From Elusimicrobiota bacterium (GTDB lineage: Bacteria > Elusimicrobiota > Endomicrobiia > CG1-02-37-114 > XYA2-FULL-39-19): a stretch of DNA of 35,801 bases. The stretch lies in assembly GCA_018816525.1 (NCBI GenBank), contig JAHIVV010000006.1:1-35801 (forward strand). Direction: 5' to 3'. A program made the position numbers and the translations under genes. This document shows, one piece after another, positions 25-32,309 of this stretch; the first letter of the stretch is position 1, and every line of letters starts with the position of its first letter. The notes beneath the pieces are model-generated. The model was not told where the DNA came from. It ran no database searches and worked only from the letters and a program-made list of their open reading frames with translations.

Positions 25-1737
25 TCATTCTATATATTCCTTTAACGTCTTGCTTCTTGATGAGTGGCGGAGTTTCCTGATGGCTTTTGCTTCTATTTGG
101 CGTACGCGCTCTCTGGTTACACCGAAAATTTCGCCGACTTCTTCAAGGGTCCTGGGATAACCGCCATCCAGCCCATGGCGCAATGTAAGTATTTTTTCTT
201 CCCTTTCGGAAAGGTTTGCAAGAACCTTTTTAATTTCTTCCCTGCGCATTTCCTGGAAAATACTTTTCACCGGATTGGACCCTCTTTTGTCTTCAATAAA
301 ATCTTTTAACGAGGATTCCTCATCTTCGTCAAGGGGTGTATCAAGGGAAATAGGTTCTTGAACCATTCTTAAAATATGTTTGATTTTAGTTATGGAAACT
401 CTAAGAGTTTTTGAATATTCTTCAATTGTCGGATCCCTGCCGATGGTCTGGCGGTACCTTTTTGACATTTTTAGCATCTTGGAAATAAGTTCTTTCATAT
501 GGACCGGTATTCTTATAGTCCTGGACTGGTCAGCAATAGCCCTGTTGATTGACTGCCTGATCCACCAGGTTGCATATGTAGAAAATTTGAAGCCGCGTTT
601 GTATTCAAATTTTTCGATGGCTTTCATTAATCCCAGGCTGCCTTCCTGAATAAGATCTGTCAGGTCCAGGCCGCTTGAAGTTGCATATTTTTTTGCTACG
701 GAAACTACAAGCCTCAGATTTGCTTTAATTAGTTTGAGTTTGTCTTCAAGGATAAGCCGTTCAAGTTCTTTAATTTTTATATAAGTGTCAAAAAGCTGGT
801 TATGGGTTACGGGTAGAGATGTGCCTGACCTGTTAGTTTTCTTGACGATATTTTTTAGATTGATTATGCTGGATTCGATGCCCGTAAATGTATACCCTGT
901 GGCATGCCTGAAAGCTGTGGGGGTAATCCTTTTCGCCTCGCACCTTCTATAGAGCCTGAATAAGTCTACATAAGACATTTTAAATCTTTTCTCATATTTT
1001 TTAATTTCGCCTTCCCACTGTTTAGCATGGCTGGCAAAAGTTTTTATCTTATTGATCAAACGTTTTATTTTGTCCTGGTTGAGGTTGAGCCCTATAATTT
1101 TGTCAATTATGTTCTGTCTTTCCTGGGCTATGCGATTGTAGAGAGCGGTCTGGTTTTTGTGTTTTTTTGCTTTTTTCTCAAGTTTTTTCACTTTTCTATC
1201 AGTATTATTGATATATTTTACGGTGGCTCTCATTTTCTGGCGCATACGGCTTAGTTGTGCTGAAGATTTCCGTCCTCTGGGCATAAGTTCCTTGGTAGTC
1301 ATTTCCTTCTGGTCAAGCAACAATTCCCAATTGCGAATTTCTTTTAGTGTGATTGGAGAGCCCAATACTATAAGTTTTAACTTTTTTTCATTTTCTCTTA
1401 TGCTTCTTGCGAGATTTACTTCTTCTTCGCGTTTGAGGAGCGGTTCCTTGCCCATCTCTGATAAATATAGCCTGACCGGGTTAGTCAGTTCTTCTTCATT
1501 TCCGTAAGAGTAAGTATGATGCGGTTCTGCGCGTTCCAGTTGATGGGGTTTAATGTTTGTTTCAGTTTCAGCTTTGTCTATAACGGGAATTCCCATATCC
1601 TCCAGCGTGCCGAAAAATTTATCAAGCTGTTCCGGAGATATAGTGTCCTCAGGCATAGCGCGGTTTATCTCATCGTAGGTTATGTATTCATTTTCTTTTG
1701 CATGCTGTAGCAATCCTTTAAAAATATCTTTATTCAT
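25..1737 (-). CDS. rpoD: Primary RNA polymerase sigma factor (sigma-70/RpoD)
   Basis: This is the housekeeping sigma factor that directs RNA polymerase to -35/-10 promoters. The 570-residue protein has the full primary-sigma layout. A region 1.1-like N-terminus covers about residues 1-60, and region 1.2 is at 86-118 ([11 protein letters not shown]). A long lysine-rich non-conserved region runs from about 119 to 330. Region 2 is at about 333-405, with [12 protein letters not shown] and the -10 recognition helix around [18 protein letters not shown]. Region 3 is at about 410-490, and region 4 at 500-565 has the helix-turn-helix [18 protein letters not shown]. Its ATG overlaps the dnaG stop by four bases (ATGA), so the two are probably translationally coupled. 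It is the last gene of the rpsU-dnaG-rpoD operon. The long non-conserved region resembles proteobacterial rather than Firmicute sigma-A. The assignment is secure. Confidence 0.97.
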
Positions 1738-4773: not shown

Positions 4774-5118
4774 TCAACCTGGGGGCCAGCCTAGTTTCCT
4801 TTTTCCAAGCAGGTGGAAATGCAGATGGCCTACTGCCTGGCCGGCATCCGGGCCGTTATTAACAATTAAGCGAAACCCGGTTTCCGATACTTTTTCTTTT
4901 ACCGCTAAAGCTTGCGCAACCAAATGAATTTTTCCGATCAATTCCCGGTCCTTGTCTTTTAAGTCCATTACCGATGGAATATGCTTTTTTGGGATAATCA
5001 ATATGTGGACTGGCGCCTGGGGATTTACGTCATTGAAAGCAAATATTTCATCATCTTCGAAAACAGCAGCCGCCGGTATTTTTTTCTCCGCAATTTTACA
5101 AAAAATACAATCAGACAT
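4774..5118 (-). CDS. HIT-family (HINT/PKCI-type) nucleotide-binding protein
   Basis: HIT proteins of this type hydrolyse AMP-lysine and other nucleoside phosphoramidates. The start is the ATG at 5118, giving 114 residues beginning MSDCIFCKIAEKKIPA, the standard HINT N-terminus. An AAGGAC ribosome binding site stands about 9 bases before it. The open frame continues 32 codons further upstream, but those residues are not family-like. The catalytic histidine triad is intact (HLHFHLLG near the C-terminus), as is the N-terminal Cys pair CIFC. It is on the same strand as ssrA, 171 bases after it, and a separate promoter is visible in the gap. Family certain, substrate unknown. Confidence 0.93.
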   Translation of the reverse strand: MSDCIFCKIAEKKIPAAAVFEDDEIFAFNDVNPQAPVHILIIPKKHIPSVMDLKDKDRELIGKIHLVAQALAVKEKVSETGFRLIVNNGPDAGQAVGHLHFHLLGKRKLGWPPG

Positions 5119-5223
5119 CTTTTTTGTCCTTGTTATAGTTTCCAAAATCGTAAATATCTTTGTGCTTGTAACCCGAACTCTAAAAAGGTTTGTATATTGG
5201 CAGGCCAGATACAACTTAATACT

Positions 5224-5251
5224 ATATTAACAATATTTGCAGAAAAGTCAA
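5224..5251 (-). promoter_or_regulatory. Predicted promoter of the HIT gene
   Basis: On the minus strand, TTGACT (5251-5246) and TAATAT (5229-5224) are 16 bases apart, with TG one base before the -10 box (TGTTAATAT), an extended -10. The predicted start is near 5217, leaving a 100-base untranslated leader before the HIT start at 5118. Confidence 0.45.
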
Positions 5252-5289
5252 GGGGTTTGCAAAAAATAGTTAATAATTATTAAATTATA

Positions 5290-5642
5290 TGGTGGAGGTG
5301 CGGGGAATTGAACCCCGGTCCAGAAATACGCAAATAAGGCGCCTACAGGCTTAGTTCAGATTTTTTTTGCCGTTTTCAGTTTGTCTCTGAACCTGACGCT
5401 GAAAACGGTCCCCAATTTATTTTGTCCTTCTAAAAGCTGTCGGGGCATCAAATTTTAGAAGTAAGCCTATTTAGACGCTGTCCGTTTTATAGGCGTCAAA
5501 CAGCAGCGTGCCGCCATCAATTAGGCAGCGTATGCATAAGTGTTTGCACTTATTTGTAGTGGCCGATTGTTAACGTGGCCTTCGGCCAACCACGGCCTGC
5601 AACCATTATTTACACTACCCCTGTCGAACCCTGTTCACCCCC
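5290..5642 (-). ncRNA. ssrA: Transfer-messenger RNA (tmRNA)
   Basis: tmRNA rescues stalled ribosomes and tags their unfinished proteins. The 5' end GGGGGTG pairs with CACCTCC near the 3' end as a 7-bp acceptor stem with one G-U. The T-arm CGGGG TTCAATT CCCCG is perfect, and the conserved 5' stretch reads GGTTCGACAGGGG. CCA is encoded at 5292-5290. The tag-coding segment lies at 5547-5521. Several GC-rich stems with pseudoknot potential follow it, for example GCCGTTTTCAG with its complement around 5370-5410. The 353-base length fits a one-piece tmRNA. It begins two bases after the stop of a small ORF and has no clear promoter of its own, so it may be processed from the tadA transcript. Confidence 0.95.
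5521..5547 (-). other. tmRNA proteolysis-tag reading frame (ANTYAYAA)
   Basis: Inside ssrA, the frame GCA AAC ACT TAT GCA TAC GCT GCC TAA encodes the eight-residue tag ANTYAYAA and stop. The Ala-Asn start after AAGT and the terminal Ala-Ala match known tags. Most bacterial tags are longer (10 or more residues) and end LAA or VAA, so the short length and YAA ending are unusual. Confidence 0.85.
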
Positions 5643-5644
5643 AG

Positions 5645-5785
5645 CTATTTACTATCTCGGCGATCATCAATGCGGCGCTCACCCTTTCTTCTGTTGTATG
5701 ACGGTTCTGTACCGCCCAGCCAACGCTTGTCTGAACTTTTTCTTCTTTGACTTTTTCTGGTGCTTTTATTAATTTTGTTAGCCAT
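5645..5785 (-). CDS. Small basic hypothetical protein between tadA and ssrA
   Basis: A 46-codon ORF begins MANKINKSTRKSQRRK and ends in NRRKGERRIDDRRDSK. It is very rich in Arg, Lys and Ser, with no membrane segment and no cysteine, so a nucleic-acid-binding role is possible but not shown. The ATG is six bases after the tadA stop. The ribosome binding site GAGG overlaps the end of tadA, which suggests translational coupling. The stop TAG is two bases before the first base of tmRNA. I do not recognise a family. The repeated Arg-Arg pairs resemble low-complexity linkers seen elsewhere and are weak evidence. It could be chance, but start, ribosome binding site and tight fit favour a real gene. 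Confidence 0.55.
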   Translation of the reverse strand: MANKINKSTRKSQRRKSSDKRWLGGTEPSYNRRKGERRIDDRRDSK

Positions 5786-5791
5786 AATACC

Positions 5792-6259
5792 TCACTTTAT
5801 TCTGCGCGCGTTTCTCGCTTTTTTAAAAAAATCTTTCATCATTTTTGAGCATTTTTCTTGGATGGTTATATCCGGTATTTGTACAAGTTCGGGTTTTTTT
5901 AAAGAACGATTCGTGTACATTTTATTAAAAGAAGCACACCCGAATACAATTTTTTTTATTCTTGCCAAATGGATGGCAGTCAGGCACATGGCGCATGGTT
6001 CTACGGTCACATAAAGAGTTGAATCTGACAGCCTCCAATTGCCTGTTTTTCGGCCAGCTTTACGTATCGCAAGTATTTCCGCATGTGCTGTCGCATCATT
6101 TTCCGTTTCTATGCGATTATAAGCTTTTGCAATTATTTTGTCGTTTTTTGCAATTACTGCGCCTACGGGAACTTCACTGTTTTTCAATGATCTTTGCGCT
6201 TCTTCAATAGCTTTTTCCATGAAGAACCCGTCGTTATTGTTTGATGAAATCATATACAA
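5792..6259 (-). CDS. tadA: tRNA-specific adenosine deaminase TadA
   Basis: TadA deaminates A34 of tRNA-Arg(ACG) to inosine so it can read CGU, CGC and CGA. The 155-residue protein has the zinc-dependent deaminase signatures HAE (59-61, catalytic Glu61) and PCAMC (88-92), with SEVPVGAVI upstream and a basic C-terminal helix. Family length is about 150-165. No strong ribosome binding site precedes the ATG at 6259. A second ATG two codons on, or the Met at residue 14, could be the true start. Its substrate tRNA-Arg(ACG) is encoded 25 bases upstream on the same strand. It is followed by the small ORF and ssrA. Confidence 0.93.
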   Translation of the reverse strand: MYMISSNNNDGFFMEKAIEEAQRSLKNSEVPVGAVIAKNDKIIAKAYNRIETENDATAHAEILAIRKAGRKTGNWRLSDSTLYVTVEPCAMCLTAIHLARIKKIVFGCASFNKMYTNRSLKKPELVQIPDITIQEKCSKMMKDFFKKARNARRIK

Positions 6260-6284
6260 AAAGTTTCCGTTTTAAAAATTAAAA

Positions 6285-6358
6285 TGCGCCCAGCAGGATT
6301 TGAACCTGCAGCCTAACGGTTCGTAGCCGTTCGCTCTATCCAATTGGGCTATGGGCGC
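6285..6358 (-). tRNA. tRNA-Arg(ACG)
   Basis: A full cloverleaf: acceptor GCGCCCA/TGGGCGC, anticodon arm AACGG-CTACGAA-CCGTT with anticodon ACG, T-arm GCAGG-TTCAAAT-CCTGC, discriminator A. CCA is not encoded. The D-stem GCCC/GAGC has one C-A mismatch (12-23), where a U-A pair is usual. It begins 18 bases after the nadA stop, with no promoter in between, so it is probably part of the cysE-nadA-tadA transcript. Its A34 is the TadA target. Confidence 0.95.
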
Positions 6359-9596: not shown

Positions 9597-10043
9597 ATGG
9601 ACAGATATTTAACAGACCAGGAAAAATTACTGGCAAAAAGTCTATTGAAAAACATAGATTTTCTCAAAGACCTCCCGGATCCGGAGCTGGACCAGCTGGC
9701 TAATTCGCTTGAAAAGAAAAATTTTAAGCCTGAACAAACTGTTGTTTTTCAGGGCGAGATTTCCAGCAAACTTTATATTGTTTGCGATGGTCTGGTGGGG
9801 GTTTTTGTAAGAATCGGCGGAGAGAAAAAGAAGGTGGCGGAGTTAAGGGTGGGGGATTATTTCGGGGAAATGTCATTGCTTGAACCTGCGACCGCCAGCG
9901 CTACAATTCGCGCAGAAAAACCATCCGTAATATGCGCCATATCCTGTGATAATTTTAAAAAAATAGTTGAAAAAAATACGGTTGCACTTGAAACCTTAAA
10001 GAAAAAAATAACTGCAAGAAAAGAAGCTTCAAAACCTAAATGA
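9597..10043 (+). CDS. Cyclic-nucleotide-binding-fold regulator without DNA-binding domain
   Basis: The 148-residue protein is a stand-alone cNMP-binding (Crp-type) beta-roll, about residues 20-125, with VVFQGEISSKLYIVCDGLVGV and the phosphate-cassette region YFGEMSLLE. A helix-turn-helix is absent, so it is not a transcription factor by itself. The cassette Glu (E91) is present. At the place of the Arg that contacts the cyclic phosphate in CAP (R82) the sequence has Ala (A100 in TASATIRA), so cAMP or cGMP binding is doubtful. It is the first gene of the operon and overlaps the kinase gene by ATGA, which suggests it controls or scaffolds the kinase. No clear ribosome binding site precedes its ATG. 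Confidence 0.85.
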   Translation: MDRYLTDQEKLLAKSLLKNIDFLKDLPDPELDQLANSLEKKNFKPEQTVVFQGEISSKLYIVCDGLVGVFVRIGGEKKKVAELRVGDYFGEMSLLEPATASATIRAEKPSVICAISCDNFKKIVEKNTVALETLKKKITARKEASKPK

Positions 10044-12604
10044 CCAAAAAGAAATCAACAGGATTGTTGTCGGATTTACTGATAGGGCTGATAATTTCCC
10101 TGGTTTTAATAGGTGCGTTTTTATTGCAGGTCTCCTTTTTTGAAGGTTTCGAATATAAATTTTATGACATGCGCGCAAAACTGCGCAAAAGCAAAGGCCC
10201 CAGTAATAAAATCGCTATTGTAACTATTGACGATCAAAGTATTGCCAACATAGGCAGGTGGCCCTGGCCGCGCGCGGTTATTGCGGAATTAATCAACCAG
10301 ATTGCCAAATCCAATCCGAAAGTTATAGGTTTGAATATTTTGTTCACTGAGCCGGATAGAAACCAGGGTTTGGAAGAGTTAAAGAAACTTAAAGAGAGTT
10401 ATATAGCAATTATTTTCCAGACCCAGGGTAAACTGAAATTGAAAAAAGATAAAGAACTGCTGATGAATTTCATGCAGTCTTTAAGCGAAGCAGAAGCAAG
10501 TATAGATAATGACACAATTCTTACTACATCCATCGAATCAGCCCAAAATATAGTCCTTCCGATGTTTTTCACTTTAGGTAAACCTCTCTCTACAGAACAA
10601 GCAGGAGGAGAGTCTTCTGTATTATCCAGCAATACTATAACCAATGTAACAAAAGTGGATGAAAAAGACCAAAAAAAGCTAGCTGTGCTTGAAGGATATA
10701 TGCCTACAACACCGCTCGATTTATTTGCAGAAGTTTCTGCGGGCATCGGGCATTCAAATCTTGTTGCGGATTTGGATGGTGTAGTCAGGCGCGAATGTCC
10801 GGTGATAAAATGCAATGACAAATATTATCCGTCATTTGCTTTACAGCTTGTCAGGATTTATCTTGGATTGCCGCTTGATGGGATAAAATTAAGCCCGGGC
10901 AGAGAGCTGTCTTTCGGCAGCGCAAATATTCCGCTTGGAAATAATAACTCAATGCTGATTGACTTCAGCGGTCCGGTGCAAACCTACCAGTATAATTCTG
11001 TTTTTGACGTTTTGACAGAAAAAATACCCTCGGATGTATTCAAAGACAAGATTGTACTTGTCGGCTATATGGCTACCGGATTAACGGAATTAAATACGGT
11101 CCCGGCCGGAAACAATTTCCCAAGTACGGAAATTATTGCCAATTCAATTCAAAATATTATTGAACAAAAATTTATCATGCGGCCTAAATGGTCTTTTGCT
11201 GTTGAGCTTGGAAGTTTGTTGGTTTGCGCTGCATTTATTACTTTCCTGCTTCCAAAACTCAAAGCCAAATGGGGCGCCATATTTTCAGTTGTTTTGCTTT
11301 TAATAATTTTAGGCGCGGGAACTTATTTCTTCGTTTTCAACGGTTTATGGATAAAAGTTTTTTATCCGTCGTTTTTGCTGATATTCGGCTACACAGTAAT
11401 TACATCAAAACGTTTCCTCTTGACAGAAAAAAGAAAAGAGCTTGTTGAAGCAGAAAGTATTGAAACTAATAAGATGCTCGGGCTTTCTTTTCAGGGGCAG
11501 GGTATGCTGGACCTGGCGTTTGAAAAATTTAGAAAATGCCCTCTTGATGACACAGTCAAAGATTTACTTTACAACCTGGGCCTTGATTTTGAAAGAAAAA
11601 GGCAATTCAATAAAGCTGCTTCAGTTTATGAGCATGTCGCAACAGCCGACCCGAAGTTTAAAGACATTGAAGAGCGCATGAAAACTCTTAAAGCGGTCAG
11701 TGAAGGCATGATGATGGGTTCTGTGCCGGGTTCCAAGAGAACCAAAGGTGATACAGTCATAATGGAAGGCCTTGCAAACCAGGCTCCTACGCTTGGCAGG
11801 TATGAAATAGTAAAAGAATTGGGCCATGGCGCCATGGGAACAGTTTATCTGGGCAAAGACCCTAAAATTAACCGGTTGGTAGCTATAAAAACAGTACGTT
11901 TTGAGGATGATTTACCTGAAGAAGAGATGAAAGCGATAAAACAAAGATTTTTCCGCGAAGCGGAATCCGCAGGCAATCTTTCTCATCCGAATATTATCCG
12001 AATTTTTGATGCCGGCGAGGATTATGACGTTTCCTATATAGCCATGGAATTGTTGGAAGGCGAAGATTTGAAAAAGTACGGTGAAAAAGCAAACCTGCTT
12101 CCAATAAAAGACGTAATAAATATTTTGATAAGGGTTGCAGATGGTTTGGATTTTGCCCACAAACAGGGTGTTGTTCATAGAGATATAAAACCTGCGAATA
12201 TTATGATGCTTAAGGATGGTTCAATAAGAATTACTGATTTTGGCATAGCCCGCGTTATGGCATCATCAAAAACGCAGACAGGAACTGTTCTTGGGACGCC
12301 GTCCCATATGTCTCCGGAGCAGGTTGCCGGGAAAAAGGTTGACGGAAGGGCTGATCTTTTTTCTTTCGGCGTGATGATGTTTGAACTGTTGACGGGCCAG
12401 AAACCATTCCAGGGTGACAGCATAGCAACATTGATTTACCGGATAGCCAATGAAAAACACCCGGATCCAAAATCAATCAGAACTGATTTTCCTGATTGTT
12501 TAGTACCTGTAATAGATAAAGCATTGCAGAAAGACCCGAATAACCGTTACCAGACAGGGAAAGAAATCGTGGATGATTTGACAGTCTGTTTAGGAAAACT
12601 ATAA
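10040..12604 (+). CDS. CHASE2-TPR transmembrane Ser/Thr protein kinase
   Basis: An 854-residue Hanks-type kinase with an extracytoplasmic CHASE2 sensor. TM1 is at about 10-30. The CHASE2 domain (about 35-380) starts FEYKFYDMRAKLRK and has IAIVTIDDQSIANIGRWPWPR and a terminal KDKIVLVGYMATGL. Three helices at 386-405, 411-432 and 437-455 return the chain to the cytoplasm. A TPR-like linker at 478-550 (MLGLSFQGQGMLDLAFEKF) precedes the kinase domain (586-854). All catalytic motifs are present: GHGAMG 595-600, Lys617 in VAIK, HRDIKPAN with D715, DFG D733 and SPE 758-760. It should be active. The CHASE2 domain is enlarged by a charged segment at about 125-215. Partners are the PP2C and FHA genes downstream. 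The signal sensed is unknown. Confidence 0.95.
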   Translation: MTKKKSTGLLSDLLIGLIISLVLIGAFLLQVSFFEGFEYKFYDMRAKLRKSKGPSNKIAIVTIDDQSIANIGRWPWPRAVIAELINQIAKSNPKVIGLNILFTEPDRNQGLEELKKLKESYIAIIFQTQGKLKLKKDKELLMNFMQSLSEAEASIDNDTILTTSIESAQNIVLPMFFTLGKPLSTEQAGGESSVLSSNTITNVTKVDEKDQKKLAVLEGYMPTTPLDLFAEVSAGIGHSNLVADLDGVVRRECPVIKCNDKYYPSFALQLVRIYLGLPLDGIKLSPGRELSFGSANIPLGNNNSMLIDFSGPVQTYQYNSVFDVLTEKIPSDVFKDKIVLVGYMATGLTELNTVPAGNNFPSTEIIANSIQNIIEQKFIMRPKWSFAVELGSLLVCAAFITFLLPKLKAKWGAIFSVVLLLIILGAGTYFFVFNGLWIKVFYPSFLLIFGYTVITSKRFLLTEKRKELVEAESIETNKMLGLSFQGQGMLDLAFEKFRKCPLDDTVKDLLYNLGLDFERKRQFNKAASVYEHVATADPKFKDIEERMKTLKAVSEGMMMGSVPGSKRTKGDTVIMEGLANQAPTLGRYEIVKELGHGAMGTVYLGKDPKINRLVAIKTVRFEDDLPEEEMKAIKQRFFREAESAGNLSHPNIIRIFDAGEDYDVSYIAMELLEGEDLKKYGEKANLLPIKDVINILIRVADGLDFAHKQGVVHRDIKPANIMMLKDGSIRITDFGIARVMASSKTQTGTVLGTPSHMSPEQVAGKKVDGRADLFSFGVMMFELLTGQKPFQGDSIATLIYRIANEKHPDPKSIRTDFPDCLVPVIDKALQKDPNNRYQTGKEIVDDLTVCLGKL

Positions 12605-12616
12605 CCGGAGCTATGG

Positions 12617-13432
12617 ATGAAATTGATTATTGCTGGCAAAACAGATAAAGGTGTGGTGCGGCAAAATAACGAGGATGCTTACGCCGTTGACGAAGAGATT
12701 AAATTATTGGTAGTTTGCGATGGTGCCGGCGGTCAGGCAACAGGAGAAGTAGCGAGCAAGATAGCAACAGACGTTATACCTACACAGATGCGCCGAGCTC
12801 TTATAAATAAAGAAAGAACGATATTCGGAGAAAAAAATCCGAATTTTTCTGATGAGACAAATTTTCTTGCTTCAAGCATAAGATTTGCAAATCAGGTGAT
12901 ATTTGAAGCGGCAAGGAAATACCCGCAAAATTCCGGGATGGCTACAACTGTAGTTTCAGTGCTGGTTAAAGATGACACTATTTCTTATTGTAATGTTGGT
13001 GACAGCCGGATCTATTTAATAAGGGAAGGGACATTTAAACAACTGACTAATGACCATTCGCTGGTTATGGAACAGTTAAGAAGATGTTTAATAACAAAGG
13101 ACCAGGCAGAAAAATCGGAATATAAAAATATTTTAGTAAGAGCGCTGGGGCCCAAACAGGATGTGGAAGTTGATATGCAGGAGATGCCGGCAAAAGAGGG
13201 GGATTTGCTCATGCTTTGTTCTGACGGTTTAACTCACATGACCAAGGATTCAGAAATATTTGAAAAAATAAAGAATGGCCAGGTTCCAGAAGAAATTTGT
13301 GAAAAATTAATTAATCTGGCAAACGATGCCGGCGGGAAAGACAACATAACCGTAATAGCAGCAAAATTAACTAAAGAAGAAGGAATATTGAAAAATTTCG
13401 TTTCTTTTATTAGGGGAAAATATGCCTCCTAA
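12617..13432 (+). CDS. PP2C-family Ser/Thr protein phosphatase
   Basis: The 271-residue protein is a bacterial PP2C (Stp/PrpC type) that should reverse phosphorylation by the kinase encoded just upstream. Metal-binding motifs are intact: RQNNEDAY (E19, D20), CDGAGG (D35), VGDSR (D129), CSDGLT (D203) and GKDNIT (D242). There is no transmembrane segment. The start ATG at 12617 has a GGAG ribosome binding site six bases upstream, 12 bases after the kinase stop. The last 11 bases overlap the FHA gene. The kinase-phosphatase-FHA order is a common regulatory cassette. Confidence 0.95.
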   Translation: MKLIIAGKTDKGVVRQNNEDAYAVDEEIKLLVVCDGAGGQATGEVASKIATDVIPTQMRRALINKERTIFGEKNPNFSDETNFLASSIRFANQVIFEAARKYPQNSGMATTVVSVLVKDDTISYCNVGDSRIYLIREGTFKQLTNDHSLVMEQLRRCLITKDQAEKSEYKNILVRALGPKQDVEVDMQEMPAKEGDLLMLCSDGLTHMTKDSEIFEKIKNGQVPEEICEKLINLANDAGGKDNITVIAAKLTKEEGILKNFVSFIRGKYAS

Positions 13433-14174
13433 ATTTTTACTAAAATTCAATGCAGCAGTAATCAAAGAAATCCCAATTCCTGAAAGCGTAAAATTATTAA
13501 CTATCGGCAGGAAACCTGATAACGACATCGTTATTGACAATCCTGCAATTTCAGGGCACCATTGCAAAGTAACAAAGTTCGGAAATGTTTATTTTGTTGA
13601 AGATTTAGGCAGTACAAACGGTACTTACATTAAAGGTAAAAAAATCATTAAAGCAGAAATCCATCACAACGACCAGATTGACCTGGCGAAGCACTCATTA
13701 CAGTTTTTTTACGAAGAAGAGCTCAAGGAACAAGGCCCGGCTGATAAAACAGTTGTTTTAAATTCGGAAGCGCAAAAAGAAATTCTTGAAAGGTATGCAC
13801 AATCGGCGCAGCCGGCATCCTCCCCGCTTCCAATCCCGGATATTCCTTCTACTGACAAAACCGCATATTTAAAAGTGGTTGATGGGGTTGTTGACAAGAC
13901 AGAAATTGATATCACAACAATAGTAACTTATATCGGTACTACTGACGCAGCCGCGATAAAATATAAACCAGGAAGCGGTATTTTTGCAGGCGGAGCACCG
14001 GAAATAGCCGGGCTTATTAATAAAAGGCCGGAAGGGTATATTCTTAAAGCTTTAAAGAGCGGGTTCCCAAAAGTAAACAGCCAGCCGGTAAAAGACCAGA
14101 TTTTGTTAAAAGAATGGGATGTAATTGAGGTTGGCAAGACAAAATTGATATTGCTCTCAAAAGACAGAACCTGA
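13422..14174 (+). CDS. FHA-domain protein with a second degenerate FHA-like domain
   Basis: FHA domains bind phosphothreonine peptides and so read out kinase activity. The first domain (about 25-95) has all key residues: IGR at 28-30, S44 and H47 in ISGHH, and STNGTY with N66. The C-terminal region (about 160-245) has the same strand pattern (TYIGTTDAAAIKY ... NSQPVKDQILLKEWDVIEVG) but lacks the consensus binding residues. The linker holds DKTVVL (T110) and DKTAYL (T147). Both have the form Thr-x-x-Leu expected of FHA ligands and may be targets of the neighbouring kinase. A strong ribosome binding site (AGGGGA) lies inside the end of the PP2C gene, which it overlaps by 11 bases. Last gene of the operon. 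Confidence 0.9.
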   Translation: MPPKFLLKFNAAVIKEIPIPESVKLLTIGRKPDNDIVIDNPAISGHHCKVTKFGNVYFVEDLGSTNGTYIKGKKIIKAEIHHNDQIDLAKHSLQFFYEEELKEQGPADKTVVLNSEAQKEILERYAQSAQPASSPLPIPDIPSTDKTAYLKVVDGVVDKTEIDITTIVTYIGTTDAAAIKYKPGSGIFAGGAPEIAGLINKRPEGYILKALKSGFPKVNSQPVKDQILLKEWDVIEVGKTKLILLSKDRT

Positions 14175-21530: not shown

Positions 21531-22624
21531 CTTTTTAATAATTTTATCATCAAAAATAATCCTACTGTAAAAGCGCAAATATTCGGCAGCCAAAGCACAA
21601 GAGCGATAGGCAGTTTCGGGATTCTTTCAGTTGCGGAAATGGAACCGATTAAAATAAAGTAGTATGCGCAGATTATTCCCAGGCTAAGGGCGAACCCTAC
21701 GGTTCTTCCGCCCCGATTTGTTATTATGCCCGTAGGCAAGCCGATAAGCACCAGGCATAATGCGGCAAAACCTATTACCCACCTTAAATTATATTCGGTT
21801 TCAAATCGCGCTGTTTCTGTTTTATGCTCCCTGGCAAATTTAATTTCTTTCAACAGGTCTTCCGAGGAAATTTCTCTTAAGGTCGAAGCTGCCTGTGCAT
21901 TATTTTTTTGTTCTTCGAACAAAGAAATAGTTATGAGGTAATTATCAAAAGCAAATTGAGTGAGTTTTTCTGAATCGTCAGAAGAGGTGGCCTGCAATAT
22001 TCCGTCTTTTAAATTGAAAGTTATAGCGTTTTCTGCGATGTTCGCAGTACCTGATTTTGCAATTATCTGCGTATTTCCAGCAGGGGGTGATATTTTATAA
22101 ATATTCACGCCGCGGAGCTCATTAGCGTTGTTATCTATTTCATTGATATAAATACGGTAGTTTCCCAGTTTGGTAAGGGCCTTTTCCTCAAATTTCATTA
22201 GGGGTTGTTTTTTCGCAATCGTAAAATATATACGTGAAAATTCAGAATGTATTTTCGGAAGCACTTCAAGATTCAGCCAGGAAAGCATAAGGCTTAAAAC
22301 AAGAGCCAGCAGTAACGGCTGGAAAGTAAACCTGAAAGTATTGATGCCCGCGGAACTAAGGGCTGTTATTTCACGGTCTTCTGACATTCTTCCATAGGTA
22401 AGCAGTACAGAAAAAAGCAGAGACATCGGCACCGTGACGGTGAAAAGCGACATGACAAGGTATGTTATTAACTGTGTAACAACCAATACTCCTGCGCCCT
22501 TGTTTATCAATAAATCCATAAGTTGGAACAGATTGTTCAGCACTAACACGAAAGTAAAGACAATCATTCCAATAACGAAGGATTTTATTGATTCTTTATA
22601 AATATATTTCGTCAAAATATTCAT
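21527..22624 (-). CDS. lptF: LPS export permease LptF-like
   Basis: The 365-residue protein is the first gene of the LptF/LptG pair. N-terminal helices include SFVIGMIVFTFVLVLNNLF and the conserved VPMSLLFSVLLTYGRMSEDRE. A periplasmic beta domain covers about 125-250, and the three C-terminal helices include GFAALCLVLIGLPTGI. Together with LptG it forms the transmembrane part of the LPS transporter; lptB, lptC and lptA are not in the window. The predicted start of transcription is two bases before the ATG, from a promoter divergent from sprA. Confidence 0.88.
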   Translation of the reverse strand: MNILTKYIYKESIKSFVIGMIVFTFVLVLNNLFQLMDLLINKGAGVLVVTQLITYLVMSLFTVTVPMSLLFSVLLTYGRMSEDREITALSSAGINTFRFTFQPLLLALVLSLMLSWLNLEVLPKIHSEFSRIYFTIAKKQPLMKFEEKALTKLGNYRIYINEIDNNANELRGVNIYKISPPAGNTQIIAKSGTANIAENAITFNLKDGILQATSSDDSEKLTQFAFDNYLITISLFEEQKNNAQAASTLREISSEDLLKEIKFAREHKTETARFETEYNLRWVIGFAALCLVLIGLPTGIITNRGGRTVGFALSLGIICAYYFILIGSISATERIPKLPIALVLWLPNICAFTVGLFLMIKLLKR

Positions 22625-22632
22625 ACTCAGAA

Positions 22633-22665
22633 ATTATAGCAAAAAAGCGAAAAATTCGCTATAAT
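22633..22665. promoter_or_regulatory. Mirror-symmetric divergent promoters of lptFG and sprA
   Basis: ATTATAGC (22633-22640) and GCTATAAT (22658-22665) form an inverted repeat whose arms contain the -10 boxes of the minus (22638-22633) and plus (22660-22665) promoters, 21 bases apart. Inside is a second inverted repeat, GCGAA-AAA-TTCGC. Each -35 region (TAGCAA and TAGCGA, poor matches) overlaps the opposite -10, so the two promoters cannot be bound by polymerase at the same time. Start sites fall at 22626 (minus) and 22672 (plus). Confidence 0.6.
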
Positions 22666-22671
22666 ATTCCC

Positions 22672-25600
22672 GTGAAAAAGGGATTTTTTAAGCTCCTAGT
22701 GCTGTCAATTCTACCAATTATTGCCGCAGTACCGGTATTTTCTGAGATAAGCTATATCCATCCACAGAGCCCATCGGTAGCTCAACCTCAGGTTGGCCAG
22801 GAAGAGCAGGTACAAATAGACACAACTTCTCCTTCGAATATCGATGACGAGTCTTTTTTCCAGTATACCCGCGATCAATGGCGCGAGATGCGCAAGGCTA
22901 TCGAAGAAGGCCGTAAACCGGGCGAAAAAGCTGAAAAATCGACAGTTGTTGTCATCGGGCCTGAACTGCCTCCGCCGTCTACAGGCGGTACCATTGAACT
23001 GCCCTATGAAACCAGGTTATCCATCCAGGGTTCGAAAGTCATCGGAATGAAATACTCTTTCAGGAAATACGACAACAATTCTTTGCCGGCAAACCAGGAT
23101 TCCGGCAGTTTTGAAATGGAACAATCTCTCGTAGTAAAAATCAGCGGACAGGTAGGCAAAAAAATAAAAGTTAACGTCAATTTTGATGATACCCAGCCTG
23201 ATGTGAGGGATATTTCGGTTGCTTATCACGGAGATCCTGATGAAGTTGTGCAGGAAGCGGTTTTCGGCGATATTATGCTTTCACTGCCGGGTACTGAATT
23301 CGTAGGATACGGCAGGCAGGCCTTCGGTATAAAATTGACCACAAAATATAAAAATTTAAGAACCTATTTTGTCGGCAGCCAGGCCAAAGGCACCCCGGTC
23401 AGCAAGAAATTTACAGGAAGCACCCAGATGGAAAAGCCCGTAATTCAGGATACTAGTTACGCCAAAAGAAAATATTACCAGTTAACTTTTTTTAGCACAG
23501 AAACCATTAACAATGACGGGAGCGAAGAAATTTACATAGATGATAAAAATCCAAATAATGACCTGGTTAATGGTTCTAAAGACCTGGCGTTTTCAAGTTA
23601 CACCACCCGCGATGTAATTATGGGGAGCGTTGGAAAATTTGACCGCCTCCTTTCTGCAAAGGGGGATTATACCATCGATTATTCAAAAGGAATTATTATT
23701 TTCCGAAATTCGCTCCAGGACAATGCGGTTGTAATCGTAAATTACAAAAGAACGGACGGCAGCCATCTGGTAAATACCCTGCCGGGCTCAACGAATTACA
23801 TTCTTATTAAAGACGATCAAAATACCTCTGGTATTACCAGAGAAATTAAATCTTACTATAACCTGAATAGGACGCAGATTGTACGGGATAACGACAGAGG
23901 AAATTTTTTCTTAAAAATTGTTAAGGATTCAGGGGAAGAACCTACACTTGCGGAATGGAAACGCGACACAGGACTGGATGCAATACCCAAGTACTCGGAG
24001 AATATAAAAATAGATTTTGAAAGCGGTGTTTTCAATATCGTTGACAGTTCAGGAAATCCCTGGAATGTTTTTCCGTCTCCCGCATACCAGGGTGTAGGTA
24101 CTCATGCTCTCTATAAGTTTTATATTGAATACAGGTTCAGAACCAAACAATTTGATTTAAATCCGCCCGGTTCCATGATTCCTCAATCCGAACAGATTGT
24201 AATGGATGGCAAAACATTGCAAAGGGATAAAGACTATATAATGGATTATGACCTAGGCAGGTTTACCTTCCTGAACGAAAACATGTTTAATGACAACAGC
24301 GTTATAGATGTCAATTACGAGTATGCGCTGTTTGGCGGACTGCAGGTCGGCGAGACGTTCGTAGGTATCCGCAACGAGCTTTCCCTTACGCGGAATATGT
24401 TTGTGGGTGTAAGTTATTTGAAAAATTTTCCTCCCCGGCCTCAATCCATACCTGACCTGAAATCAGTAGCGAGTGACCTGGAAATAAAAGAAATTGATTC
24501 TAGAATTCAGAACTTAAGATGGGGCCCGCTCTCTTTGGGTTTTGGCGGCGAGTATGCGCAAAGTTTGCGTAATATGAATACTTACGGAAAAGCTATGATA
24601 GATTCCATGGAGGGAATAAAACAGGCCGAAAGCCCTGCCTTAGCCAAAGATTCCTGGAAATACGGTTGGACAGTGCAGGATTACCCGCCTGATGCGGTAA
24701 CTTTAACCAATGAAGACCAATTATTGCGCGATATTTACGGGATCGATCAGGTCAAAGACGAGAAACAAAGCGTTTTGAAAGTAGCTTATGATTTAACCAG
24801 AGCTTCAGAATGCGCTGTGGCCCAATTGTTATCAGCCACCGGAATAGATTTTTCGAAAAAAACTTCTATGGAAATGAAATTGGCTGGCAGACAGACAGCC
24901 GGCGCGCAGTTTACTGATGATGACTTTATTACTATAGAATTCGGGAAATTCAATGAAGATGTTGATCATGACAAGTCATTCGATACTGAAGATATAAGCA
25001 CTAACAATGTATTGAACGATGGGGAGGATATAGGATGGCTTTTCAATGCGCCTGACTGGCCGTTAAAAAAAGACCAATTGAGAGTTGGGGCAAATAACGG
25101 CCTTATTGATTCAGAGGATTTAGACGGTGATCGCATTTTCAACACTAATGAGGCGGTAGACCAGGATAAAAAATTCGTAATAAAAATGAATGATTTCAAC
25201 AATTCCTGGGCCAGCATACAAAGGGATATTCAAAAAATTGATTCAAATACCTGGCTCTATATAAAAGAAATTAGAATAACCATCCACGCACCGGGAAAGG
25301 TTGGAGAAATCAGGATTGCAAAAATGGATGCAGTAGGCAATAAGTGGGAAAATTTGACCCCCACAGGGCTTGTTCTTAAAGCTGTTAATAATTACGATGA
25401 TAAACGCTATCGCGACCATGCCCTCAACCAGGAAGGCGGGCCTATGCTGTCCGAATATGAAAGCTTGTACGGTAAACAAACTATCAGGACTTTCAAGCAG
25501 GAACAGGCTCTTGAAATGAACTACGAATTTTCCTACAGTACCGCAATTCCCGTGATATCGACAGGCGCTTTTGTCGCAAAGTTGAGTTTAGGAGCAGGAG

Positions 25601-27969
25601 AAGATTTTTCAGTTCACCAGAAATTGAAATTTTTCGTCTATGGCGATAATAAGGGCGAAATATTAGTTTTAAGAGCCAACACGGATAATGATGGAAACTA
25701 TTTTGAGTATAAAAGACTCGTAGATTGGTCCGGTTGGAAAGAGATAACAATCAACCAGGTTGATGTTAACGGCGACAAAATTCCTGAAATCTGGCAGGCA
25801 GAACAGGGAGTAACCGCTGAATGTTCCGGTAAAGGGTTTGGAGTAGGATCTCCGAATCTTGCAAAGGTTAGTTATTTGCAGTTTTTAATTGTAAGTTCAG
25901 GTACTATTGGCAGTACTTCCTATCCGCCCATTCCAGCCCAACAGCCCAGCTATATCTGGATTGATGAAATTCACATGACAGATTCTATATCCAGGCAGGG
26001 TGATGCGTACAAAATTTATGCGAACATGGGAATAGACGGGTGGGCAACTTTTGGAGGAACATACAAATATAAAGACCCCAATTTTGAAACTTTTGACGCC
26101 CGGGCTGTAGGTACCCAGCAATCTTTTGAACAATCGGGAAACCTCAATTTTACCCGGCTGGGTTTTATGCCTATGAATTTTTCCGGAGGCAGGACAGAAA
26201 CACGCACTACCAGCATAGACAAATCGGCAGATTATGTATCTATACTTCAAAAAGGAAGAGTAATCACAACCAATTTCACTGCAGGTACCAGGCTTAATAT
26301 TAACCGGCTGCCAAGTTTGTCCTATAATTATTCAGTCAATACAACCAGTTCATCTAACGAAGCATCTAAGTACTTTTTAACTAACACAAGGGAATCGCAG
26401 GATGCAAGTTTAAATTATTCAATCGGTAAATTAACAAAGTTTGATCCCATCGACTCTTTTATACCTCAAAGCCTAGCTTTAGGCGGAGGCCGCACAATTA
26501 ACAGGGACGAACCCTGGCTAGTTATGCGTGATACCGGGCAAAATCCGGTTAAGCTGGAATACACGGAAAGATATAATGTATCGGCACCTTTCCAGATGTT
26601 CTGGAACAGGTTTTCGCTCAACCCGTCCTATTCGCATACAAATTCCTATGAAGAAAGAAGGATCCCGAATTTTCCAAAATATGACAAAACAGCCGGTCAG
26701 ACAATAGGTTTGGGGACTTCTTTAACAGTTACAGACTGGTTTGTTCCCCGGGCCAATTATTCTTTGTCTACAAATGAAAATTTTGATTTTACCGGTATTA
26801 CCGACCCTGATAAAATATCAAAAACAAAATCCGTACAAAGAAACGGGTCTGCCAGTGTTTCTGCGGATTTTGGGATAGGGAGAATTTTTCCTAAATTTAA
26901 CCCGACAAAATCTTTAAGTTTAAACTCCAGTTATTCAATCCAGGATGGAGATCAATACAGCCGGGTGGGCAGTACCTATCCTGCATTAAACGATATCTGG
27001 ATAAGAGAGCCTCTTAAGAACGGGACTTTGACTTCATTGACAAGAAGCGACACAATAAGTTCCTCCGGCAGGTGGAATCTTTTTGAAGGCCTTCCTTTGC
27101 CGGGTAAATTATCGCCCTTGAGCAAGACTTCAACTTCTGTGGGCTATTCAGAACAAAAATCGTTTTCGTTTAGCGGGTCTAAATCACGGAACCGGGTCCT
27201 TACCTGGCCCGACCTTACAGTATCTCTTTACGATATGGAAAAAATGTTCGGCGGCGACAAATATATTTCCGACACAAGCCTGACCCTGACTAATAGGTAT
27301 AAACAGAACAATTCTTATAATGTTATCGATGATACCGACGTACCGCAGATAGAAAACAGGAATATTGATAATGCTGTCAGCATGCATTTTAATTCAAAAC
27401 GGTATATAAAATCACTTTCATTGACTTTTGGCGACTCAAGAGCCCGGGATTACAGTTACATTGATAAAAAATTTACCAGGGTTTCAATATCCTTCAATTA
27501 TTCAGTTCAGCCCAGCTTTGACGCTTTAGGCATGACCCTTACGCCCAGTTATTCTTATTCTGAAAATAAGGCCTGGGCGGGCGACCCCGATGATCTTGAT
27601 CCTTCAGAAAGCGCAAGAATCAAAAAAAATCCTACTAGTGATTTACGTACGGAAACAGCGAGCATAAGTTTTTATAAAGACGCATCATTTCCCGGCGGTA
27701 TGTTTATACCCATCATAGGAAAAACACTGCCCTTAACAAACAGGTTTATTTTCAATGCCAGCCTTTCTTATTCAAAAACGGACTCGGATATAAATATCGG
27801 TAATTCAAAAACTACCACGTATGGGTTAACCCTCAGCGGTAATTACACTATTTCGGACAATCTGTCATCCGAACTTGGCGCCGGGTATAATCGTTTTATG
27901 AACAGGGAAGTAAGCGATAAAAACTGGACCTCATACAGTATAAACGCCAGGCTGACGATCTCCTTCTAA
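22672..27969 (+). CDS. sprA: SprA-like giant outer-membrane translocon protein
   Basis: A 1765-residue protein beginning at GTG 22672, which gives a clean signal peptide (VKKGFFKLLVLSILPIIAA); the frame is open 28 codons further upstream, but that reads through the promoter. SprA/Sov is the huge beta-barrel that exports proteins in type IX secretion. SprA-type marks are GKKIKVNVNFD at about 162-172, DPDEVVQEAVFGD at 188-200 and GRQAFGIKL at 214-222. VGSPNL starts at 1058 and YIWIDEIHM at 1094. After that come about 650 residues of alternating strands ending in an aromatic (LTISF). An acidic Asp-rich stretch at about 760-840 (EDLDGDRIFNTNE) looks calcium-binding. It is shorter than typical Bacteroidota SprA (over 2300). 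Partners GldKLMN are absent here. Confidence 0.82.
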   Translation: MKKGFFKLLVLSILPIIAAVPVFSEISYIHPQSPSVAQPQVGQEEQVQIDTTSPSNIDDESFFQYTRDQWREMRKAIEEGRKPGEKAEKSTVVVIGPELPPPSTGGTIELPYETRLSIQGSKVIGMKYSFRKYDNNSLPANQDSGSFEMEQSLVVKISGQVGKKIKVNVNFDDTQPDVRDISVAYHGDPDEVVQEAVFGDIMLSLPGTEFVGYGRQAFGIKLTTKYKNLRTYFVGSQAKGTPVSKKFTGSTQMEKPVIQDTSYAKRKYYQLTFFSTETINNDGSEEIYIDDKNPNNDLVNGSKDLAFSSYTTRDVIMGSVGKFDRLLSAKGDYTIDYSKGIIIFRNSLQDNAVVIVNYKRTDGSHLVNTLPGSTNYILIKDDQNTSGITREIKSYYNLNRTQIVRDNDRGNFFLKIVKDSGEEPTLAEWKRDTGLDAIPKYSENIKIDFESGVFNIVDSSGNPWNVFPSPAYQGVGTHALYKFYIEYRFRTKQFDLNPPGSMIPQSEQIVMDGKTLQRDKDYIMDYDLGRFTFLNENMFNDNSVIDVNYEYALFGGLQVGETFVGIRNELSLTRNMFVGVSYLKNFPPRPQSIPDLKSVASDLEIKEIDSRIQNLRWGPLSLGFGGEYAQSLRNMNTYGKAMIDSMEGIKQAESPALAKDSWKYGWTVQDYPPDAVTLTNEDQLLRDIYGIDQVKDEKQSVLKVAYDLTRASECAVAQLLSATGIDFSKKTSMEMKLAGRQTAGAQFTDDDFITIEFGKFNEDVDHDKSFDTEDISTNNVLNDGEDIGWLFNAPDWPLKKDQLRVGANNGLIDSEDLDGDRIFNTNEAVDQDKKFVIKMNDFNNSWASIQRDIQKIDSNTWLYIKEIRITIHAPGKVGEIRIAKMDAVGNKWENLTPTGLVLKAVNNYDDKRYRDHALNQEGGPMLSEYESLYGKQTIRTFKQEQALEMNYEFSYSTAIPVISTGAFVAKLSLGAGEDFSVHQKLKFFVYGDNKGEILVLRANTDNDGNYFEYKRLVDWSGWKEITINQVDVNGDKIPEIWQAEQGVTAECSGKGFGVGSPNLAKVSYLQFLIVSSGTIGSTSYPPIPAQQPSYIWIDEIHMTDSISRQGDAYKIYANMGIDGWATFGGTYKYKDPNFETFDARAVGTQQSFEQSGNLNFTRLGFMPMNFSGGRTETRTTSIDKSADYVSILQKGRVITTNFTAGTRLNINRLPSLSYNYSVNTTSSSNEASKYFLTNTRESQDASLNYSIGKLTKFDPIDSFIPQSLALGGGRTINRDEPWLVMRDTGQNPVKLEYTERYNVSAPFQMFWNRFSLNPSYSHTNSYEERRIPNFPKYDKTAGQTIGLGTSLTVTDWFVPRANYSLSTNENFDFTGITDPDKISKTKSVQRNGSASVSADFGIGRIFPKFNPTKSLSLNSSYSIQDGDQYSRVGSTYPALNDIWIREPLKNGTLTSLTRSDTISSSGRWNLFEGLPLPGKLSPLSKTSTSVGYSEQKSFSFSGSKSRNRVLTWPDLTVSLYDMEKMFGGDKYISDTSLTLTNRYKQNNSYNVIDDTDVPQIENRNIDNAVSMHFNSKRYIKSLSLTFGDSRARDYSYIDKKFTRVSISFNYSVQPSFDALGMTLTPSYSYSENKAWAGDPDDLDPSESARIKKNPTSDLRTETASISFYKDASFPGGMFIPIIGKTLPLTNRFIFNASLSYSKTDSDINIGNSKTTTYGLTLSGNYTISDNLSSELGAGYNRFMNREVSDKNWTSYSINARLTISF

Positions 27970-31089: not shown

Positions 31090-31431
31090 ATGTATACATT
31101 ACTTTTGATAATAAATATCATTGCGGCAGTTTTTCTGATTCTGATAATTTTGATGCAGACAGGCAAGGCCGGCGGAATTGGCGGTGTTTTGGGCGGCGGT
31201 GGCGGTTCGGATCAGCTTTTTAGTACGCCATCAGGTTCTGAATTTTTACGTAAAACTACGATCATTGCTGCAGCCATATTTTTCATTTCGACAATAGGGC
31301 TCACATATTTCGGTTATCGTGAAAAGATAAGAACAGTTACAAGCCAGATGCCTCAAGCACCGGTCTCTGCGCCTTCTGCAGAGGCTCCTGCTCCGCAGGC
31401 TCCAACTGGGGCACCTGCGCCAGCAAAATAA
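31090..31431 (+). CDS. secG: Protein translocase subunit SecG
   Basis: SecG is the small helper subunit of the SecYEG channel. The 113-residue protein has two membrane helices (about 3-21 and 53-72) around the conserved loop LMQTGKAGGIGG and GGGGGSDQLFSTPSG. It ends in an Ala/Pro-rich tail (about 88-113) that looks unstructured. The ATG follows the pgk stop directly, with CCGGAG in the end of pgk as ribosome binding site. Confidence 0.95.
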   Translation: MYTLLLIINIIAAVFLILIILMQTGKAGGIGGVLGGGGGSDQLFSTPSGSEFLRKTTIIAAAIFFISTIGLTYFGYREKIRTVTSQMPQAPVSAPSAEAPAPQAPTGAPAPAK

Positions 31432-31440
31432 AAAACCCTC

Positions 31441-31522
31441 GCCGGGGTGGTGGAATTGGCAGACACGTACGTTTAAGGGGCGTATGCTTTACGGCATGCG
31501 GGTTCAAGTCCCGCCCTCGGCA
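31441..31522 (+). tRNA. tRNA-Leu(AAG)
   Basis: Class II cloverleaf: acceptor GCCGGGG/CCTCGGC with one G-U, D-arm GTG/CAC, anticodon arm TACGT-TTAAGGG-GCGTA with anticodon AAG and G37, variable stem TGC/GCA, T-arm GCGGG-TTCAAGT-CCCGC, discriminator A. CCA is not encoded. Ten bases follow the secG stop, with no separate promoter seen, so it is probably in the gap operon transcript. The A34 is unusual for a bacterial leucine tRNA. Confidence 0.9.
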
Positions 31523-32158: not shown

Positions 32159-32166
32159 ATAATTTA

Positions 32167-32252
32167 TGGGCGGAGAGGGAATTGAACCCTCACATCCCCT
32201 AAGAGACTCAGGATTTTAAGTCCTGTGCGTCTGCCAGTTCCGCCATCCGCCC
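32167..32252 (-). tRNA. tRNA-Leu(TAA)
   Basis: Class II cloverleaf: acceptor GGGCGGA/TCCGCCC, anticodon arm CAGGA-CTTAAAA-TCCTG with anticodon TAA, a long variable arm (about 15 bases) and T-arm GAGGG-TTCAATT-CCCTC, discriminator A. CCA is not encoded. It reads UUA and UUG. Two promoters are visible upstream. Confidence 0.95.
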
Positions 32253-32309
32253 ATTTTCGCATAGTACGAACCTCAAAATTCTTTCAAAATAATTTTGGGG
32301 CTAAGTCAT

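Follow-up and report, generated by a model that had tools for sequence, protein, structure and literature searches.

Leucine tRNAs with adenosine at the wobble position (A34) are already known as a kind from Lactobacillales, where TadA converts A34 to inosine (I34) and the resulting tRNA-Leu(IAG) has been reported (excerpt of PMC13249217). According to the same excerpt, bacterial tRNA-Leu(AAG) genes lie almost all in Bacilli, with Mycoplasma and Prochlorococcus also named. In Streptococcus pyogenes, the tRNA-Leu carries full I34, which is made by the S. pyogenes TadA and not by that of E. coli (excerpt of PMC11472039); where the anticodon is AAG, altering position 32, 37 or 38 stopped E. coli TadA in every case tested (excerpt of PMC11066159). 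Oenococcus oeni edits two of its four A34 tRNAs and leaves two unmodified (excerpt of PMC11066159), and its A34 tRNA-Leu is among those edited in the cell (cited in the excerpts of PMC11066159 and PMC11472039). On the enzyme side, K110 of E. coli TadA (K106 of SaTadA) helps to hold the backbone of the tRNA loop and D108 (D104 of SaTadA) bonds the ribose of U33; an N at position 108 of some natural TadA proteins has also been noted (excerpt of PMC10586758). The view that bacteria normally keep A34 to tRNA-Arg, from which an earlier note on this DNA had started, is thus incomplete, given the Lactobacillales exceptions (excerpts of PMC13249217 and PMC11472039) and the further cases found by the scan described below.

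The locus described here lies in a stretch of 35,801 nucleotides from an Elusimicrobiota bacterium, called the window. As in Streptococcaceae and Lactobacillaceae, A34 stands in place of the GAG anticodon and tRNA-Leu(UAG) and others stay (excerpts of PMC13249217 and PMC11472039), and in both cases TadA must accept a second tRNA. Unlike these families, the window belongs to another phylum, its gene occupies a secG site, no clear codon reprogramming accompanies it, and its inosine is predicted. The S. pyogenes tRNA-Leu loop differs from that of its own tRNA-Arg only at positions 35 and 37, whereas the two window tRNAs differ at 32, 35, 37 and 38; likewise, the TadA of S. pyogenes has N108 with K110 retained, whereas the window TadA has S108 and, by plain reading, no basic residue at 110. 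The window genome shares with O. oeni an A34 tRNA-Leu outside the arginine box, but holds two A34 tRNAs among the 40 tRNAs found, against the four described for O. oeni. The eukaryotic tRNA deaminase ADAT2/3 is a heterodimer, said to take several A34 tRNAs, one for leucine among them; the window genome, by contrast, holds a single TadA match at E below 1e-15. Comparison shows that G34 changed to A34 in place; the account that we consider probable is that TadA would convert A34 to inosine, and that the tRNA would read CUU and CUC instead of the lost tRNA-Leu(GAG). The window-family tRNA would then work like the tRNA-Leu(IAG) of Lactobacillales, most likely with an independent origin.

The tRNA-Leu(AAG) gene and the leucine tRNA set

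The A34 leucine tRNA is real (Table 1). The anticodon AAG proposed in the earlier note is the one assigned by ARAGORN, and only its placement at 31474-31476 was one base low, 31474 being U33. Read from the sequence, the anticodon stem has five base pairs (U27-A43, A28-U42, C29-G41, G30-C40 and U31-G39) and the loop is UUAAGGG (U32 U33 A34 A35 G36 G37 G38), with both the U33 and the G37 said to flank the anticodon; the loop of the window tRNA-Arg(ACG) is CUACGAA. The Rfam tRNA model, whose cut-off is 29 bits, matches the gene over its full span when the search is run on a short stretch or on the own genome, and the gene is missing from the default Rfam scan of the whole window. Single-strand folding did not return a cloverleaf as its minimum and was set aside. 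The same A34 is found in two other genomes of the family, which points to more than chance or a sequencing error.

Table 1. Features of the window discussed in the text
Feature	Coordinates	Strand	Evidence
tadA, presumed A34 deaminase	5792..6259	-	PRK10860 and PDB TadA matches; HAE and PCxxC
tadA beta4-beta5 loop codons, GCASFNKMYTNRSL	5900..5941	-	alignments, translation
tRNA-Arg(ACG), canonical TadA substrate, directly upstream of tadA	6285..6358	-	ARAGORN; Rfam 66.1 bits
secG, directly upstream of tRNA-Leu(AAG)	31090..31431	+	Pfam SecG 67.9 bits
tRNA-Leu(AAG), without encoded CCA	31441..31522	+	ARAGORN (tRNA-Leu, aag); Rfam RF00005 45.3 bits; sequence
anticodon AAG, A34 = 31475	31475..31477	+	ARAGORN and sequence
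tRNA-Leu(UAA)	32166..32253	-	ARAGORN, Rfam; neighbour also in two family relatives

The own genome (1,595,353 bases in 93 contigs, 98.55% complete) gives 40 matches above the cut-off of the Rfam tRNA model. Its leucine set, as called by ARAGORN, consists of AAG, UAA, CAA, UAG and CAG, and A34 occurs in Arg(ACG) and Leu(AAG) only. No tRNA for Tyr, Asn, Thr(GGU), Gly(UCC) or Arg(CCU) turned up in it, which reflects assembly gaps, so that the absence of GAG from this single assembly is weak evidence on its own. The window family comprises the own genome (G000) and two relatives (G001 and G002), all of them gapped assemblies. No tRNA-Leu(GAG) was found in the own genome by Rfam and ARAGORN, nor in any of the three by a pattern allowing A or G at position 34, which matched once in each genome, at the AAG gene. 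The loss of tRNA-Leu(GAG) that the earlier note had raised as a check is therefore what the searches return, and CUC needs another reader. Its suggestion that CUN decoding is widened is open to doubt, since tRNAs of their own (UAG and CAG) already serve CUA and CUG; the exchange of G34 for A34 or I34 mainly concerns CUU and CUC.

A weak match to the tRNA model (19.2 bits) lies elsewhere in the own genome, at positions 1354-1441 (-) of locus L037 on contig C42. Its 3' part resembles an acceptor stem and T-arm, ARAGORN calls nothing there, and Rfam returns sub-threshold matches only. Further tRNA-model matches below the cut-off are present in G001 to G004.

Origin of A34 at the secG site

A secG gene lies upstream of the tRNA-Leu, on the same strand, in all 30 loci read in the class, and within about 100 bases in 27 of them. 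These loci, the own genome included, comprise 3 with AAG (G000, G001 and G002) and 27 with GAG. The genes of G001 and G002 are 99% and 93% identical to the window gene, and G003, which has the same order and belongs to a sister family, carries GAG; in G004, a 79% complete genome of another family, the CUY-reading tRNA-Leu was not found. Of 340 genomes of the phylum, a strict AAG pattern picked out 3, every one from the window's family; this pattern misses D-arms of the YATAC kind, which are common in the class and, where read, belong to GAG genes. A pattern allowing A or G matched 286 of the 340, with GAG throughout the matches listed, in families outside the class. The constant position behind secG establishes an origin in place: tRNA-Leu(AAG) is the ancestral secG-linked tRNA-Leu(GAG) with G34 changed to A34. 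By comparison, this change to the CUY-reading tRNA took place in the ancestor of one family.

A TadA with a remodelled tRNA-contact loop

The best NCBIfam family for the window TadA is PRK10860 TadA (E 3.8e-36), which remains its top family although the score of 124.4 bits lies below the equivalog cut-off of 150 bits; this miss says little, since the cut-off is reached by no more than 5 of the 14 named control genomes. The HAE and PCxxC motifs (zinc, catalytic) are intact. The gene stands directly next to tRNA-Arg(ACG), its presumed first substrate, and is followed by tmRNA and a HIT-family gene (4774-6358 in all). The order tRNA-Arg(ACG), tadA, tmRNA recurs in G002 and G004, where enzyme and substrate genes also adjoin; G003 has tRNA-Arg(ACG) and tmRNA on one contig in another arrangement.

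The specificity loops of TadA, which the earlier note had advised examining, do differ: in the window enzyme the tRNA-contact loop is altered and D108 and K110 are lost. The loop GCASFNKMYTNRSL stands where most class relatives have D-x-K-x-G-A-C. There the window TadA reads G-C-A-S-F-N-K, that of G002 G-C-A-S-L-E-N and that of G004 G-C-R-S-P-V-Q, all three with S for D108 and no basic residue at 110; for the window this follows plain reading, which sets the numbering, as the aligner's gaps in the window row shift and give either S or a gap at 108. A search of the class gave a TadA match in 36 of 39 genomes, and 30 loci were aligned; no TadA match was found in G001. Leaving out G000, G002 and G004, 27 reference rows (22 from GAG genomes and 5 with the anticodon unread) have D108 in 26 cases, K110 in 27, N127 in 26 and H128 in 25. 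Ten conserved positions (E. coli 105-126) are kept to the number of 4 in the window, 1 in G002, 2 in G004 and 10 in G003, while G005, G012 (anticodon unread), G016 and G017 keep 6 or 7, all with K110. A tree built with the loop masked and G012 left out unites G000, G002 and G004 in one clade (99/95); their branches are long, and G003 falls outside.

The own TadA, with its rebuilt anticodon-loop-binding beta4-beta5 loop, is the enzyme that most likely deaminates A34 to inosine. Since G004, from another family, shares the TadA change and its CUY-reading tRNA-Leu was not among the genes found, the loop change may have preceded the step from G34 to A34.

A34 tRNA-Leu in other bacterial lineages

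A collection of 84,980 species genomes was scanned with a restricted AAG pattern, which returned at least 119 stretches, 80 of them examined as loci. ARAGORN calls tRNA-Leu(aag) in 76 of the 80, and in the other four the tRNA is cut by the end of the locus. Among the matches listed are Caldisericota, Cryosericum, Nitrospirales, one genome labelled Nitrospinaceae, Vampirovibrionales, Melainabacteria, Caenarcaniphilales, Firestonebacteria, Desantisbacteria, Puniceicoccales and many Clostridia. Of 116 Clostridiaceae genomes searched, 79 had a match, and 18 of these are AAG by the pattern; in an evenly spread sample from the surrounding phylum (169 searched, 123 matched), only the centre genome has AAG. 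A secG gene lies upstream in 14 of the 80 loci, all of Caldiserica type or Cryosericum, which suggests that the same site may have switched to AAG there too.

The occurrence of A34 tRNA-Leu in Caldisericota, Nitrospirales, Melainabacteria-type genomes, Firestonebacteria, Desantisbacteria and many Clostridia appears to be new, judged from these gene calls. Literature titles and the beginnings of abstracts included none on A34 tRNA-Leu in Elusimicrobiota and none linking TadA position 110 with tRNA-Leu(AAG), and priority is uncertain given the earlier bacterial survey by Rafels-Ybern 2018. The exchange of G34 for A34 in the window family, together with a TadA that looks remodelled where it grips the tRNA, suggests that inosine decoding may have spread beyond arginine in bacteria on more occasions than had been assumed. 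If so, leucine wobble inosine would have arisen many times and would be no speciality of lactic bacteria.

Five loci from Nitrospirales and the Nitrospinaceae-labelled genome (L156, L164, L193, L195 and L202) carry A34 tRNA-Leu. The single TadA read from this group (G342, the genome of L156) is canonical, with D108, K110 and NH kept, which makes the group a candidate for an A34 that naturally stays unmodified or that reaches inosine by a different route. In a clostridial locus (L232), a tRNA called Arg(UCG) accompanies tRNA-Leu(AAG); if CGN codons are read there by UCG and not by ACG, TadA might serve leucine alone.

TadA position 110 and A34 tRNA-Leu

For 30 of the 80 AAG loci the TadA was sought, giving 28 genomes with a match and 26 readable sequences. 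Position 110 is K in 3 of these 26 and not basic in 23, and position 108 is D in 19, E in 4, S in 2 and N in 1. In a sample of GAG genomes from the phylum of Clostridium bovifaecis (80 TadA rows from 78 genomes), 110 is K or R in 77 rows and D108 is present in 73. Among the AAG genomes outside Clostridiaceae, a basic 110 is found in 3 of 23, versus the 77 of 80 rows of this sample (Fisher p 2.7e-15, a value that ignores kinship and compares different taxa). Within Clostridiaceae, where 19 AAG genomes (18 by pattern plus 1) and 14 of 61 GAG genomes were compared, the corresponding figures are 0/19 and 4/14 (Fisher p 0.024), with D108 kept in all 19 AAG genomes; the loop is thus eroded in both kinds there.

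None of the three positions considered serves as a code. Loss of K110 fails as a strict mark of AAG, as 10 of the 14 GAG Clostridiaceae have no basic 110 and three AAG genomes keep K110. D108 fails as a general one, D or E being kept in 23 of the 26 AAG genomes; cases that lack D108 include S. pyogenes (N108) and the window family (S108). A small residue at position 152 (C35 pocket) was considered since S. pyogenes has G there and G000, G002 and G004 have A, T and A; it fails too, as K, R, L or I occupies this position in 18 of 23 AAG genomes outside Clostridiaceae. A fair reading of the alignments is an association between the TadA loop and A34 tRNA-Leu, perhaps a permissive state, and not a code. 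Only tentatively, loss of the K110 clamp and rebuilding of the beta4-beta5 loop might be a recurrent, convergent step or precondition for leucine inosine in many phyla, of which the window family, having lost D108 too, would be the extreme case. If this were true, natural TadA variants with broad substrate range would be recognisable from one sequence loop, simple in vitro assays could address how TadA widened its range, and base editing would gain a relevant set of natural enzymes. The change of D108 to N is reportedly what opened the way to adenine base editors.

Codon usage and alternative explanations

CUC makes up 7.4% of 5789 leucine codons sampled in G000. In the sampled stretches, CTC/(CTC+CTT) is 0.20, 0.29 and 0.12 in G000, G001 and G002, and the corresponding values for G003 and G004 are 0.28 and 0.35. 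For the same five genomes in this order, the share of CTT is 0.29, 0.28 and 0.30, then 0.23 and 0.27, and that of CTC is 0.07, 0.11 and 0.04, then 0.09 and 0.15. The gap, pgk and eno genes hold 10 CTC versus 28 CTT. In ribosomal-protein operons, where G000 offers few codons, CTC/(CTC+CTT) is 0.12, 0.22 and 0.11, and the values of eight others run from 0.05 to 0.43. CTC shares in these operons lie between 0.05 and 0.36 in seven other genomes of the class, of which five were read as GAG, so that a low share is no mark of A34. Codon usage was accordingly dropped as a read-out of inosine, as it shows no clear rise of CUC and no usable signal. A34 and I34 are indistinguishable by it, beyond the regular use of CUC with no G34 tRNA found.

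That A34 is an assembly or sequencing error, or the gene a pseudogene, is as good as refuted: AAG and GAG are one base apart, and the assembly is in 93 contigs with several expected tRNAs not found, but A34 recurs in three separate assemblies of one family in which the gene has changed elsewhere, and the gene fits the tRNA model along its whole length. Acquisition of the gene by horizontal transfer from another A34 lineage is very improbable as well; nearly identical anticodon arms do occur in Desantisbacteria and Caldisericota records, but the window gene occupies the conserved position behind secG, and its identity to GAG genes within the class reaches 90%.

An unmodified A34, which would read CUU by A-U pairing and CUC weakly, perhaps with help from tRNA-Leu(UAG), the TadA loop having changed otherwise, is a more serious contender, which we nevertheless regard as unlikely. 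The CTC/(CTC+CTT) values of the AAG genomes, set beside those of G003 and G004, would suit it, unmodified A34 mostly reads U-ending codons, and U32, G37 and G38 make a poor loop for an E. coli-type TadA (excerpt of PMC11066159). Against it stand the regular use of CUC, in glycolytic genes too, with no G34 tRNA found to read it, the equally low CTC shares of GAG genomes in the class, and the great rarity of unmodified A34 tRNAs (excerpt of PMC11066159). Inosine made by TadA has points counting against it too: position 110 is non-basic in 10 of 14 GAG Clostridiaceae, D108 is kept in all 19 AAG ones, K110 is kept in three AAG genomes and in S. pyogenes, some class relatives deviate in the loop region as well, and G004 shares the TadA change with no CUY-reading tRNA-Leu found. 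The lack of a clear rise in CUC, the differences of the tRNA-Leu loop from that of tRNA-Arg(ACG), at positions where changes stopped E. coli TadA, and the two unmodified A34 tRNAs of O. oeni (excerpt of PMC11066159) count against it likewise. Under the inosine reading that we favour, tRNA-Leu(IAG) would read CUU and CUC, and could read CUA, in place of tRNA-Leu(GAG).

Other genes in the window

Two further regions of the window are recorded here. A protein of 1793 amino acids (22588-27969) has a marginal match to an autotransporter beta-domain at its C-terminus only. A CHASE2-domain protein kinase (region 10040-14174) is followed by phosphatase-like and FHA-like genes, the last two recognised by eye.
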